This document shows, one piece after another, positions 1,416-8,978 of a DNA stretch of 64,000 nucleotides. Origin of the DNA: Propionibacteriaceae bacterium (GTDB lineage: Bacteria > Actinomycetota > Actinomycetes > Propionibacteriales > Propionibacteriaceae); contig WRIJ01000005.1 of the NCBI GenBank assembly GCA_009782785.1, positions 1 through 64,000 on the forward strand, given 5' to 3'. Below the pieces are notes generated by a model. It saw nothing but the letters and a program-made list of their open reading frames with translations. It searched no databases and had not been told where the DNA came from. The position numbers were made by a program, and so were the translations under genes. Positions within the stretch are counted from its first letter, which is position 1. Each line of letters begins with the position of its first letter.

Positions 1416-1829
1416 TCATCTGACACTGTCCAACACCTGCGATGGTGACCATGCTTCCACGGGGGAGGACACATAGTCTTTTATGTTACGGGTGATGACG
1501 ACTTCTGCTCCAATTCGCTGGGCGGTGGCTGCAAGAATGGCATCCTCAAGATCATTCATGGTGTAGCCCAGAGCCTTAGTTACTGCTGAGGGATGGGTTT
1601 CACAGAGGGGAACAACTTTCGTTAAGGCAAGCACTGCCATACGTGCGGAAGAAGAATCAAGTCCTGCGCGCCGAAGAATGTAGAACACGTCAGCAACACA
1701 ACCGGCTGGGAACCATCCGTCGATCTTTCCTTGTGCGATCAAAGACAGGATTTGATAGGAGTCATCATAGAAACCTTCTCTCTGAAGAAGCACATCAAGC
1801 ACAATATTTGTGTCAACAATGGCCTTCAT
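1416..1829 (-). CDS. vapC: PIN-domain ribonuclease toxin (VapC-like)
   Basis: The 137-residue product opens with the PIN-domain signature (IVDTNIVLDVL, Asp about residue 6). The second acidic cluster (NDLEDA, about residue 105) and the late motif VVITRNIKDY follow. These are the residues expected to hold Mg2+ in VapC endoribonucleases, which cleave RNA when the partner antitoxin is degraded. The start codon overlaps the stop of the upstream antitoxin by 4 nt (ATGA), so the two are translationally coupled. Length and motif spacing look intact and no truncation is seen. The exact RNA target cannot be read from sequence. Confidence 0.88.
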   Translation of the reverse strand: MKAIVDTNIVLDVLLQREGFYDDSYQILSLIAQGKIDGWFPAGCVADVFYILRRAGLDSSSARMAVLALTKVVPLCETHPSAVTKALGYTMNDLEDAILAATAQRIGAEVVITRNIKDYVSSPVEAWSPSQVLDSVR

Positions 1830-2041
1830 TGGCGAGCCAAACGTTCTGCCCGTGCTTCATCAAGTGAAGTGTTGCTCCTGGCAATTCCTGCAATGTAGTC
1901 GAGCAGAGCCACGCGTTCGCTGGCTGGCCCTGTCACCCGTACTGCCTCACGTCCATGCCGTGTGATATAGACATCCTCGCTTGCTGCCAAGTCAAGGTAT
2001 CTCCCCAGATTCTGCTTAAACTGTGTCGCTGTCACAATCAT
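1826..2041 (-). CDS. Prevent-host-death/VapB-type antitoxin
   Basis: The 71-residue product starts MIVTATQFKQNLGRYLDL and continues with a segment resembling YITRHGREAVRV. That is the Phd/YefM fold, whose N-terminus dimerises and binds DNA while the C-terminal tail neutralises the toxin. The start at 2041 is chosen because GGAGG lies 6 nt upstream and because the preceding in-frame extension has no family resemblance. The gene precedes the PIN toxin and overlaps it by 4 nt. It probably represses its own promoter through the ACGAT-type half-sites directly upstream. Confidence 0.87.
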   Translation of the reverse strand: MIVTATQFKQNLGRYLDLAASEDVYITRHGREAVRVTGPASERVALLDYIAGIARSNTSLDEARAERLARQ

Positions 2042-2129: not shown

Positions 2130-2828
2130 CTACCCAGGTCGAAGAACTGGTGGATTGAGGATCGTTGAAGCAGGATCGAGCCCTGGTCGTACGCGGTATG
2201 TGGTCGCTGAAGGTCCAGGGATGCCCTGTCGTGTCCCAACAGGTTCGAGGAAGTCGGTCGTACCAAGAATTTTTCTGTGGAAGTTTCGTGGATCAAGTCT
2301 GACCCCCCACACAGCCTCGTAGACTGCTCGGAGCTCAGAGATGGTGAACTCAGGTGTGCAAAAGGCACTAGCAAGACCAGTGTATTCGAGTTTAGCTTGT
2401 GCTCTGTTGATTCCGTCGGTGAGGATCGTGTGGTGGTCGAAGGCGAGTGGGGGAACATCCCGGATCGGATACCAGTCAGCGGATGTGGCATCCCCCCCAG
2501 GGTTCGGCGCTTCGAATCGGTTCGAGAGACTCATGTAGGCAACAGAAAGGACAGGTCCTCGAGGGTCTCGTTCGAGTGGACCATAGCTCCCCAGTTGCTC
2601 AAGATGCCCTTGTGGGGACACTGAAGTTTCTTCCTTCAGCTCACGTACAGCAGCTTGGCTCAAGGATTCACCAGCCAGTACGAATCCACCAGGCAGAGCA
2701 AAGCAACCAGCGAAAGGATCGAGCAGACGGGTGGTGAGCAGAACCATTAATTCTCGACTACGGATGGTCAAGGCAACAATGTCAACGGCCACTGGTAGTC
2801 GAGCAGCCGAGTCTGGTAGATCATTCAC
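2130..2828 (-). CDS. nrtR: NrtR-type Nudix transcriptional regulator
   Basis: The 232-residue product has two domains. Residues 1-145 form a Nudix hydrolase fold with a recognisable Nudix box (GG...GES...AVRELKEET, about 47-69). Residues 150-232 contain the winged-helix segment typical of NrtR (FTISELRAVYEAV, then NFHRKIL). NrtR proteins sense ADP-ribose or related NAD metabolites and repress genes of NAD metabolism. The REXXEE core is present, so hydrolysis may be retained. Translation starts at GTG 2828; the nearest upstream ATG runs into a stop. The gene is divergent from an SPFH/NAD-kinase-like pair, and the shared intergenic region carries two matching palindromes. Confidence 0.85.
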   Translation of the reverse strand: MNDLPDSAARLPVAVDIVALTIRSRELMVLLTTRLLDPFAGCFALPGGFVLAGESLSQAAVRELKEETSVSPQGHLEQLGSYGPLERDPRGPVLSVAYMSLSNRFEAPNPGGDATSADWYPIRDVPPLAFDHHTILTDGINRAQAKLEYTGLASAFCTPEFTISELRAVYEAVWGVRLDPRNFHRKILGTTDFLEPVGTRQGIPGPSATTYRVRPGLDPASTILNPPVLRPG

Positions 2829-2849
2829 AGCGCTCAGACTAACATATTC

Positions 2850-2904
2850 GCGTCAGATTGACATAGTTGGATCTCCCCTGTAGATTAATAGCGTCAAAGT
2901 GACA
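2850..2904 (+). promoter_or_regulatory. Promoter with twin palindromic operators (candidate NrtR boxes)
   Basis: Two copies of GCGTCA-N3-TGACA occur at 2850-2863 and 2891-2904, with starts 41 bp apart (about four helical turns). A -35 box TTGACA (2858-2863), a 17-nt spacer and a -10-like TAGATT (2881-2886) read toward the SPFH gene. The first palindrome overlaps the -35 box and the second covers the expected transcription start. A repressor bound to both would block this promoter. NrtR, encoded next door, is the obvious candidate; binding is inferred. Confidence 0.68.
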
Positions 2905-2926
2905 CAATTGATTGAAGGAGGTTCCC

Positions 2927-3925
2927 ATGCCAATCAGACATTACCCATTTCTCAGCCACTACCAGGGGACACCAACCGACTATGTGATCCGTCTTCGCCG
3001 AGGAAAGAGGATCCAATCAGGCCTTGGCCAATCTTTCTGGTTCAAACGATCCCTCACAGCGATCAGTTCGCTACCAGCAACAGATCAAGAATTACCCATG
3101 ATTTTCCACGGGCACACTCTCGACCAGCAAGATGTGACCATTCAAATCACTGCCACCTACCGTTTCTTTGATCCGCTGGTTGCTGCCTACCGTCTCGACT
3201 TCGGGGTGTACCCCGCGCGTTCGCGGGACGCAACTGATGGTGTGAGTACGGTCGCAGGGTTGCTCACGCGACTAGCCCAATCGCTGGTTGTTGCGGATGT
3301 GTCGAAGCGTCGCCTCGTGGATGTGGTTGATGACATCTCCAGGATCTACACCGTCCTCGGGGATGGTTTCCATGATGAAGCCCGCATCCGCGATATTGGT
3401 GTTGAAATCCTTGACTTGCGGGTTCTTGCGATACGCCCTTCGGCGGATCTTGAGAAAGCTCTGCAAACTCCACTGCGTGAACAGATCCAAGCCGAGGCTG
3501 ATCGGGCGACCTATGAACGCCGCGCACTGGCGGTCGAGAGGGAACGTACGATTTCTGCTAATGAACTAGCCAGTAAGATCGAGCTAGCAACCAAAGAAGA
3601 AGAATTGGTGAAGCAGGAGGGTACGAACGCTCAACGCCGCGCCCAAGAAGAAGCAGCTGCCGAGTCAATCACAGCCACCTCACGGGCGAAGCTCCGGAAA
3701 ATCAAAGCAGAAGCCGAGGCAGCAGCGATTGATGTGACAGGCCAGGCCGAGGCAGCCCGTACTGCTTCTTTGATGGCAAGTTACAATCAGACCGATGCGC
3801 AGCATCTGCAAGCCTTAGCTTTGCGCGATCTAGCCCAGAATCTCGGTGACCTCAAAATCAGGCAACTCAGCATCACGCCAGACATGTTGACGGAGATTCT
3901 GAGTGGATGGGGAGGCCCACGATGA
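2927..3925 (+). CDS. SPFH/Band 7 domain protein
   Basis: The 332-residue product has an SPFH-like N-terminal domain (about residues 10-185, with ITATYRFFDP and GVEILDLRVLAIRPS). A long Ala/Glu/Arg-rich coiled coil (about 190-290) and a short C-terminal tail follow. No signal peptide or membrane helix is visible, so it is probably a cytoplasmic or membrane-associated scaffold. AGGAGG ends 5 nt before the ATG at 2927, which fixes the start. Its stop overlaps the start of the NAD-kinase-like gene (ATGA at 3922), so the two are coupled. The promoter lies under the twin palindromes shared with nrtR. The biochemical role is unknown; the context points to NAD(P) or ADP-ribose metabolism. Confidence 0.85.
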   Translation: MPIRHYPFLSHYQGTPTDYVIRLRRGKRIQSGLGQSFWFKRSLTAISSLPATDQELPMIFHGHTLDQQDVTIQITATYRFFDPLVAAYRLDFGVYPARSRDATDGVSTVAGLLTRLAQSLVVADVSKRRLVDVVDDISRIYTVLGDGFHDEARIRDIGVEILDLRVLAIRPSADLEKALQTPLREQIQAEADRATYERRALAVERERTISANELASKIELATKEEELVKQEGTNAQRRAQEEAAAESITATSRAKLRKIKAEAEAAAIDVTGQAEAARTASLMASYNQTDAQHLQALALRDLAQNLGDLKIRQLSITPDMLTEILSGWGGPR

Positions 3926-4816
3926 CAGTGGAGACGAATCAGCGACGCCGAGTGGTTGTCGTATATAGGCGTACCGAACTGGAAGAGCTCCTCGAACGTC
4001 ATGCGACCAGGGGGCAAGTTGAATTCTTTCTCAAGGTACGAGGGCGTACCCTCGCGGAGCTGCAAGGCCGTCATGACCGGATCACAGCGACCCGCCAGGA
4101 CCTCCTGGCGGCGGCTGCCGGCCGAATGGGCCACCACGAGTCTGGAGAGGGAAGATGTGAGTCGCTTCTTGTTCGCTCCTGAGGATTCTATTGTGATTGT
4201 TGGCCAAGACGGGTTGGTTGCCAATGTTGCTAAATACCTCAACGGCCAGCTGGTCATCGGGATCAATCCTGAACCTGAACGCAATCCGGGTGTTCTCGTA
4301 CGCCATAATCTCGAACGTGGTCTGGCAATCCTGCTGGAGCCTACTCGGGCAAGGATTGGTGAACTCGCCACGGTTTGCGCAATGAGTGACATGGATGAAC
4401 AACTCATTGGGCTTAATGAGATCTTCGTTGGCCAGCCGGGTCATCAATCTGCTCGCTACCTCTTGAAGACGCCGTCAGGCCAGGAGCGGCAATCGAGTTC
4501 GGGTGTTGTGGTTGGTACGGGCACGGGTGCAACTGGATGGCTTGCTTCCCTTGCCCACGACCGGGGTGTCGCCGAGTTACCGGCCTTGACAGATCAGGAC
4601 CTAGCCTGGTTTGTTCGTGAAGCCTGGCCTTCACCGACGACTGGCATTGGCTTGACCAGTGGTTGTCTTCAACCAGGGGAACAACTGACATTGAGAGTTG
4701 AATCCGATGAGTTGATAGTTTTTGGCGACGGTATTGAGTCCGACTTTCTTCGACTCACCTGGGGGCAATCGGTCACCATTGATCGAGGCCCTATGGCTGT
4801 ACGTCTTGCCCTGTGA
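3922..4816 (+). pseudogene. NAD-kinase-like protein gene with +1 frameshift
   Basis: Two overlapping frames together encode one protein of about 297 residues. The first frame starts at ATG 3922 (GGGGAGG upstream, 4-nt overlap with the SPFH stop) and gives the N-terminal part (RRRVVVVYRRTELEELL). The second frame, one base further, continues with LPAEWATTSLERED, GQDGLVANVAKYL, a LNEIFVGQPGHQSARY segment and GVVVGTGTGATGW. These are elements of the NAD kinase superfamily nucleotide- and NAD-binding core. The switch falls in GGCGGCGGC at 4107-4115, where one extra G/C triplet-slip base fits. It could be inactivation, a slippage-expressed gene or a sequencing error. The rest of the second frame has no further lesion, which argues for recent loss or continued expression. 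Confidence 0.75.
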
Positions 4817-5958: not shown

Positions 5959-6210
5959 ATGCCGACAACCCTCGTACGCCACTCGATCACAGAGACAGCC
6001 CAGATTGCAGAAGCGATAGACACAGGCGCTGCAGCGATGCCTGGTGTATCCAGAGCTGAGGTGGTACGCCGATTGATCACCCGAGGTGCTCAAGCAGTTC
6101 GCACCGACGAAGAGGTACGCAAGGCCGTACTCGATAAGTGGGCTGGGTGTTTGACGGACACTATTCCCCAAGACGCAGCCGAGAAACTGAAAGATGAGTG
6201 GCCCAATTGA
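5959..6210 (+). CDS. vapB: Ribbon-helix-helix antitoxin of a VapBC pair
   Basis: The 83-residue product has a short strand (LVRHSITET) followed by two helices (about residues 15-45, including VSRAEVVRRLITRGAQAV). This matches the CopG/Arc-type fold. A charged C-terminal tail follows, probably toxin-binding. The gene overlaps the downstream PIN toxin by 13 nt, so the two are translated together. No ribosome-binding site precedes the ATG; a TACACT box 6 nt upstream suggests a leaderless mRNA. Assignment as antitoxin rests on fold and on the neighbour. Confidence 0.78.
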   Translation: MPTTLVRHSITETAQIAEAIDTGAAAMPGVSRAEVVRRLITRGAQAVRTDEEVRKAVLDKWAGCLTDTIPQDAAEKLKDEWPN

Positions 6211-6578
6211 TTGTCCTCGATGCCTGTGTACTGATCGCCTTCGCAGATAAAGCCAATCGTTTCCACGATGACGCGTTCAAGATTTTGTCCACATCAGATT
6301 CTTTGCTGGTGTCCGCCCTCACTGCAGCAGAGGTCATGGTCTATCCGCTTCCGGCAGCTAGTGGTGACTGGGGGGATCTCTTTCGAGACTTAGGTGTGGC
6401 GATTGCTCCCATAGAAGAAGAAGACGTTGCGAGCATTGCTGAGACCCGGCGAAACTCTGGGCTCAAGATGCCTGATGTCTTAGTACTGTGGCTCGCCCAG
6501 AGCCGAGGTGCTGGTATCGCAACCTTCGATGAACAGCTCATGGCGAAGGCACAACAGTACGGCGTACCCACTGTGTAA
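6198..6578 (+). CDS. vapC: PIN-domain toxin (VapC-like)
   Basis: The 126-residue product begins LIVLDACVLIAF, giving the first PIN aspartate at about residue 8. TAAEVM (Glu about 47), MPDVLVLWLAQSRGAGIATFDEQL (Asp about 94 and 112) complete the acidic site of a PIN ribonuclease. It starts at GTG 6198 inside the antitoxin gene and ends 92 bp before the next, convergent toxin-antitoxin pair. It is a different subfamily from the vapC at 1416-1829: the first-strand motif is LDACVLIAF rather than VDTNIVLDVL. No lesion is visible. Confidence 0.85.
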   Translation: MAQLIVLDACVLIAFADKANRFHDDAFKILSTSDSLLVSALTAAEVMVYPLPAASGDWGDLFRDLGVAIAPIEEEDVASIAETRRNSGLKMPDVLVLWLAQSRGAGIATFDEQLMAKAQQYGVPTV

Positions 6579-8234: not shown

Positions 8235-8352
8235 GGTGCCTCACTTTCGCCAGTTAGGCTACCTCCGTTTGTTTTTTTGTCCATTTTGGTTTGTATGGAG
8301 AGTTGGTGGTTGGTGATGACGGTCAGACTCCACAACTGTGGATAACCCAGTA

Positions 8353-8894
8353 TCTGGATTCCGCGAGTCGCTTCGCTCCGCGGAATGACATTGCGGGTAG
8401 CTGCTGCCGTTCGCGGAATGACTCTTTCTTGTCACCCCGCGGAGCGCGCCAGCGCGACTCGCAGGGTCCAGATATCACATCGAGCGCGATGGTGGGTCTG
8501 TCGAATATGTTCACCACTAACAGACTCCGTACTGTGGTGATTGCTGATTCTGGATTCCGCGAGTTGCGGAGCCTGTGCTGCGGAGCGCGCCAGCGCGACT
8601 CGCAGTGCTCCGCGGAATGACATTGCGGGTAGCTGCTGCCGTCCGCGGAATGACTCTTTCTTGTCACCCTGCGGAGCGCGCCAGCGCGACTCGCAGGGTC
8701 CAGATATCACATCGAGCGCGATGATGGGTCTGTCGAATATGTTCACCACTAACAGACTCCGTACTGTGGTGATTGCTGATTCTGGATTCCGCGAGTCGCT
8801 TCGCTCCGCGGAATGACATTGCGGGTAGCTGCTGCCGTTCGCGGAATGACTCTTTCTTGTCACCCTGCGGAACGCGCCAGCGCGACTCACAGGG
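8353..8894. repeat. Cluster of about 200-bp intergenic repeats, 2.5 copies
   Basis: Copies start at 8353, 8549 and 8781, each beginning TCTGGATTCCGCGAG. They run through a GC-rich hairpin, CGGAATGACATTGCGGGTAG, a CGCGCCAGCGCG core, CAGGGTCCAGATATCACA and a tail ending in ACTGTGGTGATTGCTGAT. The second copy carries an extra 36 bp that duplicate the CGCGCCAGCGCG core. The third copy stops after the core. Open frames on both strands here are by-products of the repeats. The 871-bp region 8235-9105 contains no gene that I can support. Confidence 0.92.
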
Positions 8895-8978
8895 GGGTCA
8901 GATGCCCCACTGCCCATGGTGGTAACAGTCGGTGGTTGGTGATTATCGCCAGACCACACAATCGTGGATAACCTTGTA

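Follow-up and report, generated by a model that had tools for sequence, protein, structure and literature searches.

A conserved gene trio of an NrtR-type regulator, an SPFH protein and an NADK2-like protein with paired candidate operators

Results

Layout of the locus

A 64,000-nucleotide stretch of a Propionibacteriaceae genome (assembly GCA_009782785.1, contig WRIJ01000005.1, positions 1 to 64,000; hereafter the window) contains a trio of genes for an NrtR-type Nudix regulator, an SPFH/Band 7 protein and a protein related to the NAD kinase NADK2. The regulator and SPFH genes are divergently oriented, and the kinase-like gene starts at 3922 within the SPFH stop codon (ATGA, a 4-nt overlap). 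A first-pass annotation of the same DNA had described this arrangement, which the sequence and its open reading frames (ORFs) confirm. The overlap was counted in 20 of 30 relatives (L031 omitted; L011 unclear and counted as a miss). The locus has the following features.

2130-2828, minus strand: nrtR-type regulator gene (ORF list, Pfam)
2850-2863, no strand: candidate operator 1, GCGTCA-GAT-TGACA, containing the -35 box (exact match; twin kept in relatives)
2858-2863: -35 box TTGACA, inside operator 1 (read from the sequence)
2881-2886, plus strand: putative -10-like element TAGATT, 17 bp past the -35 box (read from the sequence)
2891-2904, no strand: candidate operator 2, GCGTCA-AAG-TGACA, at the expected start site (exact match)
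2927-3925, plus strand: SPFH/Band 7 gene, 332 amino acids (PF01145)
3922-4182, plus strand: N-terminal part of the NADK2-like protein, frame stopping at 4182 (identity to relatives)
~4094-4816, plus strand: remainder of the NADK2-like protein in another frame (identity to two same-genus copies)

The host genome (1.88 Mb in 26 contigs, estimated to be 96.8% complete) encodes a single canonical NAD kinase, located away from the trio, and a single NrtR; no match to NadA was found in it. Because, in addition, the genome has only one twin site, these observations support the first-pass view of the trio as a module distinct from ordinary NAD synthesis.

Paired palindromes at the SPFH promoter

The sequence GCGTCA-N3-TGACA occurs without mismatch exactly twice in the window, at 2850-2863 and 2891-2904. 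Both copies, 41 bp apart, had been pointed out in the first-pass annotation, and their reported placement agrees with our reading of the sequence, in which TTGACA falls inside site 1 and the expected start of the SPFH transcript coincides with site 2. The true palindrome is limited to the core GTCA-N3-TGAC. When up to two mismatches are allowed, the window holds 17 matches, fewer than the 23.5 expected by chance, so that the loose motif is meaningless alone. Single cores number 57 in the host genome against 33 for the reversed control, and a pair of cores whose starts are separated by 29-51 bp is found once in the entire genome, at the SPFH gene, and never in the control. A generic twin-palindrome test applied to the 101-bp spacer of the window chose a different pair (best uncorrected p 0.015), and the window by itself is therefore weak evidence. 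The strong evidence for the predicted operators is their conservation in relatives.

Conservation in actinobacterial loci

A first set comprised 32 loci including the window. All 30 with an adjacent nrtR carry two sites with at most one mismatch each. Most of these pairs are spaced by 34 bp and two by 33, the distance being 41 for the window and 43 for the sister locus L031. The locus without nrtR (L014) has no sites, and that in which nrtR is not adjacent (L004) has an altered twin. The set was then widened to 54 actinobacterial loci, the first 32 among them, with an NrtR match anywhere in the locus counted as adjacent. Of the 54, 42 show the strict twin (33 with nrtR in the locus, nine without), compared with 0.1% in shuffles. 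The spacing in these 42 is 34 bp in 31, 33 in seven, 44 in two, and 41 and 43 once each. Five of the 54 (L031, L113, L114, L116, L122) have no kinase-like match in the DNA examined. Matches lacking an examined locus were excluded from the 54; of three examined later, one has the twin and two do not.

A strict long form of the operator pattern is present in 5 of 396 actinobacterial genomes, just upstream of SPFH in all five, with no hits for the reversed control. The window's pair falls outside this long pattern because its outer arms are weaker. Operator 2 overlaps a -10-like TTATCG in many relatives with 34-bp spacing. Chance was considered as an origin of the paired palindrome and rejected, given a single pair in the host genome, no reversed-control matches and 0.1% in shuffles. 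The first-pass annotation had proposed a search of actinobacterial homologues for the trio and the palindrome, naming absence of the palindrome as one refutation; both were found there.

The regulator and its distribution

The window regulator consists of an N-terminal Nudix domain (PF00293, 8.6e-17) followed by an NrtR winged helix (PF21906, NrtR_WHD, 7.2e-12). Both pass the Pfam cut-offs, and its earlier designation as an NrtR-type Nudix regulator stands. The Nudix box is near-intact, complete save for Ser in place of Gly at the last-but-one position. The nearest solved relatives are AraR (5bs6), which is the best profile match, and 3gz5. Against the NCBIfam equivalog 'ADPR responsive repressor' the protein scores 89.5 bits with a cut-off of 400, and it is thus kin of that equivalog while lying outside it.

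A tree of 53 NrtR rows, with some long branches and a bootstrap that had yet to settle, places 42 rows in a main clade (support 97/98). These are 19 of 21 trio-adjacent rows, nine streptomycete orthologues, eight rows of a second streptomycete type and six others. The window NrtR pairs with that of a Propionibacteriaceae metagenome-assembled genome (support 100/99). The Nudix box G-x5-E-x7-R-E-U-x-E-E is present in 41 of the 42 main-clade rows and in none of the 11 outside. Read by eye, it is degraded in all four aligned proteobacterial trio NrtRs and intact in the NrtR of Treponema. In the one genome examined for the second streptomycete type, the gene is located near an RlaP gene (PF10127; L143 5480-6247).

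Regulator and operator appear to move together, with exceptions. Three genomes of one genus (G003, G100 and G025; g14) combine SPFH and NADK2-like genes with an NrtR complement limited to the Nudix-degenerate type, and operators are missing from all three. Conversely, where the strict twin occurs without nrtR next door, all seven checked genomes have a main-clade NrtR elsewhere. None of seven streptomycete-type loci (f6 g23; genus label inferred) has an adjacent nrtR; the twin is strict in six and degenerate in the seventh, and all seven genomes encode a main-clade NrtR elsewhere. In G122 nrtR is adjacent and the twin is spaced by 34 bp.

The kinase-like protein

The kinase-like gene of the window is frameshifted. 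The frame that opens at 3922 ends at 4182, and the conserved remainder (~4094-4816) lies in another frame, the shift being near the overlap of the two. The first-pass annotation had correctly placed an NAD-kinase-like gene here, coupled to SPFH, and had overlooked the frameshift. The N-terminal part is 53-69% identical to relatives over the matched stretches. The remainder, which carries GQDGLVANVAKYL, LNE and TGTGATGW, is 62-63% identical to G556 and G558 of the same genus, each of which has one open frame over the match. Since both halves keep their codon-position bias and the larger has no internal stop, the break is either recent or an assembly error. Programmed frameshifting was rejected: the compared relatives have a single open frame, except G404, in which the gene is split at another place. 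The G404 locus (L086 3549-5873) is unusual in that nrtR, SPFH and kinase genes are all on one strand and encode very divergent proteins, with the kinase-like gene split between two frames.

The window fragment has no match to the Pfam NAD kinase families. In profile searches the nearest protein is human mitochondrial NADK2 (1.9e-15, or 4.1e-19 with a cross-phylum profile), the best canonical NADK chains reaching 1e-5 and 2e-5 in the same searches. The NADK2 match extends from the N-terminus to the TGTG region, and by sequence the protein is closer kin to NADK2 than to canonical NADKs. All 11 aligned rows, drawn from three phyla, carry the motif GQDGLVAN unchanged, whereas aligned NADK chains have GGDG at this position; the NAD kinase motif is named GGDGT.

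Kinase-like matches at E<=0.001 were found in 60 of 396 actinobacterial genomes. In 13, including that of the window, they exceed 100 bits; the best match in each of the other 47 is at most 43 bits, and these look like canonical NADKs or fragments. Among 18 other genomes of the window's genus, two have a full match, one a piece at a contig edge and 15 none. Relatives are annotated in databases as 'sugar kinase', 'ATP-NAD kinase PpnK-type protein' or 'hypothetical protein'.

The SPFH protein

The SPFH protein of the window matches PF01145 (1.2e-08, 35.7 bits with a cut-off of 23.6). It contains no hydrophobic segment of the membrane-anchor type (maximum 19-residue Kyte-Doolittle value 1.35), by a test that reads hydropathy only and does not reach lipid anchoring. 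Maxima in four SPFH proteins range from 1.08 to 1.61, the highest, in Rhizobium etli, being borderline and not N-terminal.

Occurrence beyond actinobacteria

The trio is found in two or more phyla of bacteria. Among plasmid records, a protein search gave 57 with kinase-like relatives (at least 80% covered), 42 of them from Rhizobium, and 12 of the 57 were opened. The SPFH gene is directly upstream of the NADK2-like gene in all 12, truncated on pAST2. A divergent NrtR gene adjoins the pair in seven, all proteobacterial (Cupriavidus, Methylomonas, two Rhizobium, Providencia, Moraxella and Proteus). The NrtR of the Treponema locus is encoded about 4 kb off the pair, and none was found in the opened stretches of Kitasatospora, Roseomonas, pAST2 and Streptomyces. 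All five scanned regulators from the plasmid collection have the NrtR winged helix by Pfam.

Eight of the 12 opened plasmid loci were tested for repeated palindromes at the promoter, a set outside which pAST2 and the Streptomyces plasmid fall. Such palindromes are present and lineage-specific. Examples are AAGTTGTAC-N-GTACAACTT for Cupriavidus, AAAGTAGT-N5-ACTACTTT for Treponema and sequences resembling TTAGTGTC-N5-GACACTAA for Moraxella, Proteus and Providencia. Shuffle p-values, each uncorrected and for the best of ten lengths per locus, are 0/200 in six loci and 0.005 in two; the Methylomonas pair is poor, and Roseomonas (L171) has no perfect palindrome with 8-bp arms. Strong differences between groups have been described for NrtR motifs (PMC4666351). 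The NADK2-like gene stands beside a tetracycline-efflux gene, tet(H) or tet(J), in three of the records (L178-L180: pAST2, Moraxella osloensis pNP7-1 and a Proteus mirabilis record).

Gene neighbourhood

Eleven wide loci contain SPFH in 10, the NADK2-like gene in 10 and NrtR in seven; no gene family besides the trio is common to three or more of them as judged with a crude gene caller. This caller is unreliable in GC-rich loci, and statements on neighbours rest on Pfam or BLAST where those were used. Ten neighbours were scanned in four loci; one is without a Pfam match, and the other nine match ordinary families, among them DNA polymerase III alpha, arginine deiminase and pfkB. In four streptomycete-type genomes (L079-L082), a gene for Pnkp and a neighbour, presumably Hen1, are near the SPFH/NADK2-like pair, with arginine deiminase on the opposite side.

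PADLOC has no model matching the SPFH or kinase-like pieces and gives a weak match of the NrtR Nudix domain to PDC-S07 (22.4 bits). Kinase-like relatives were found neither in 50,697 phage records nor by a pattern scan of viral contigs. Phage defence, raised in the first-pass annotation, was rejected as the leading interpretation, as PADLOC, the neighbours, the phage records and the viral contigs all lend it no support.

In the window, PIN-domain genes with small partner ORFs flank the trio at 1416-2041 (minus strand) and about 5960-6578 (plus strand). They resemble toxin-antitoxin pairs; PIN_3 matches 1416-1829 (4.5e-17), and the second PIN gene and both partners were recognized by eye. Further downstream, at 8290-8960, the translations of several ORFs have stretches such as 'CHSAE' and 'TTVRSLLVVNIFDRP' in common, suggesting a repeated DNA sequence.

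Discussion

Our comparison suggests that an NrtR-type repressor very probably switches the SPFH/NADK2-like unit through the paired sites. The NrtR-type protein would bind the two palindromes across the promoter of this unit and block RNA polymerase. With site 1 on the -35 box and site 2 at the start or on the -10 element, simple repression by occlusion is the mechanism that we infer, and the regulator probably represses its own divergent promoter too. A molecule arising from NAD turnover, with ADP-ribose or something closely related as the likeliest candidate, may bind the Nudix domain and release the regulator; relief by ADP-ribose is suggested because other NrtRs respond to it (PMC6800001 and PMC4666351). 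Since the Nudix box is intact in most actinobacterial regulators, these may hydrolyse their own inducer and thereby reset, while the four aligned proteobacterial regulators with a degraded box would be pure sensors. The SPFH assembly made from the operon would be soluble, and its NADK2-like partner would probably be a kinase acting on NAD(H) or on a derivative of ADP-ribose, in answer to a loss of NAD(P) integrity; the substrate is a guess. Sensing of NAD(P) or ADP-ribose, as the first-pass annotation had proposed, is suggested by knowledge of the family. In the joint explanation that we favour on balance, NrtR would repress a kinase of NAD(P) or ADP-ribose that is scaffolded by SPFH, and ADP-ribose or a related molecule would probably lift the repression.

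Several observations weigh against this explanation. The strict twin is missing in 12 of the 54 loci, eight with nrtR beside SPFH and four without (several, L076, L084, L094 and L168, have degenerate pairs by eye that were left out of the counts), and the 54 loci are mostly from one large-genome genus (f2 g13) and hence not independent. In two genomes, G089 and G064, the SPFH gene is without the strict twin even though a main-clade NrtR is encoded somewhere, and the trio NrtRs of G526 and G404 fall outside the main clade and have no Nudix box. As many as 23 of the 42 main-clade rows are away from any trio, and the streptomycete orthologue is kept in G317 and G479, which have no NADK2-like match; for these two reasons the main-clade type must have further targets. 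Effectors vary within the NrtR family, with L-arabinose for AraR and NAD for NdnR (PMC4666351). The kinase-like copy of the window is frameshifted, and two intact relatives do not reach the PF01513 cut-off (17.4 and 16.0 bits; cut-off 25.5). One of these two also gives 12.7 bits for PF20143, with a cut-off of 23.7.

A narrower reading of the kinase, to which we give a real though lesser chance, is that of a stress-induced second NAD kinase which makes NADP(H) during NAD breakdown and is tethered or oligomerized by the SPFH protein. It is consistent with the kinship to NADK2, which takes in the LNE and TGTG regions, with an Asp of GQDG that all 11 rows retain, and with the presence of a canonical NADK for basal supply. 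The invariant GQDG in place of GGDG weighs against it and suggests an altered donor or substrate. A more speculative and rather unlikely reading is a cross-phylum module for NAD damage, in which an NrtR sensor-hydrolase detects and destroys an ADP-ribose-type signal, SPFH forms a cage that carries a kinase of a new family (GQDG, NADK2-like), and this kinase phosphorylates ADP-ribose or damaged NAD(P) and not NAD. If true, regulator, scaffold and kinase would form a single sense-and-clear circuit. It is improbable that the palindromes are bound by some other regulator, with the adjacent NrtR incidental. The nine loci that keep twin sites without an adjacent nrtR and the eight with nrtR beside SPFH and no strict twin would fit such a regulator, but a main-clade NrtR is encoded elsewhere in all seven checked of those nine (the other two being plasmid records), the sites are missing from the three genomes whose sole NrtR type is the degenerate one, and proteobacteria show different palindromes at the same promoter.

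Two further readings concern the role of the module, and to both we assign a low probability. An anti-phage or other conflict module that senses ADP-ribose would accord with the plasmid-borne copies, three of whose opened records adjoin tet(H)/tet(J), with the patchy distribution in the window's genus and with the PIN-domain genes flanking the trio. Nudix-HTH (helix-turn-helix) regulators also occur in predicted anti-viral ADP-ribose systems (PMC9503650), although neither SPFH nor NAD kinase appears in the text of that paper. The lack of a PADLOC model for the SPFH and kinase pieces, the ordinary character of nine of ten scanned neighbours, the failure of any neighbour to recur in at least three of 11 loci and the absence of the kinase-like protein from the phage records argue against it. 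Equally doubtful is a link to RNA repair, in which the module would handle ADP-ribose products of RNA end healing. Pnkp and its adjoining gene stand beside the pair in four of the seven streptomycete-type loci (one of the other three is cut by a contig end), the second streptomycete NrtR type is near RlaP in the single genome examined, and an SPFH gene is part of a Pseudomonas rtc locus (PMC13086221). No such match was found in the window or in the other examined loci longer than 5 kb, and the association could be the local synteny of one genus, so that these neighbours remained a weak lead.

Under repression of an SPFH/NADK2-like unit by NrtR, the locus would provide a conserved, concrete target for NrtR-type regulators outside NAD synthesis. 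It points to an uncharacterised family of NADK2-like kinases, and would tie an SPFH protein to pyridine-nucleotide metabolism. We found no description of the trio in the open-licence literature; an earlier prediction in the founding NrtR work or in RegPrecise is possible.

Comparison with known systems

NrtR repressors of NAD metabolism (3gz5, Mycobacterium smegmatis NrtR and Corynebacterium glutamicum NdnR) share with the window regulator the Nudix domain and winged helix, the promoter palindromes, predicted here to serve repression, and the divergent gene layout. Here, in contrast, the operators are paired and the neighbours are SPFH and NADK2-like genes instead of nadABC. The candidate operator is TCGTCA-N3-TGACGA in most actinobacterial relatives compared with GTTTTCGA-N7-TCGAAAAC in M. 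smegmatis, and M. smegmatis NrtR has lost the Nudix box that the main actinobacterial clade keeps (operator and loss both from PMC6800001). Bacteroides AraR, the L-arabinose-responsive member of the family and the best profile match among solved structures, is an example of the family's recruitment to other pathways; the window locus has no sugar-utilisation genes. The predicted ADP-ribosylglycohydrolase (ARG) systems controlled by Nudix-HTH proteins resemble the trio in their sensor, which is likewise proposed to respond to ADP-ribose, and differ in their effectors, described in PMC9503650 as ARG and phosphatases.

Human mitochondrial NADK2 is the closest solved relative of the kinase-like protein, which differs from it in having GQDGL for GGDGT and in being bacterial and encoded in an SPFH operon. 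The SPFH protein resembles the SPFH/Band 7 proteins HflK, flotillin and slipins in its PF01145 domain and its long Ala/Glu-rich C-terminal part. HflK is a weak profile match (0.0024), and the window protein differs in having no clear membrane segment by hydropathy.

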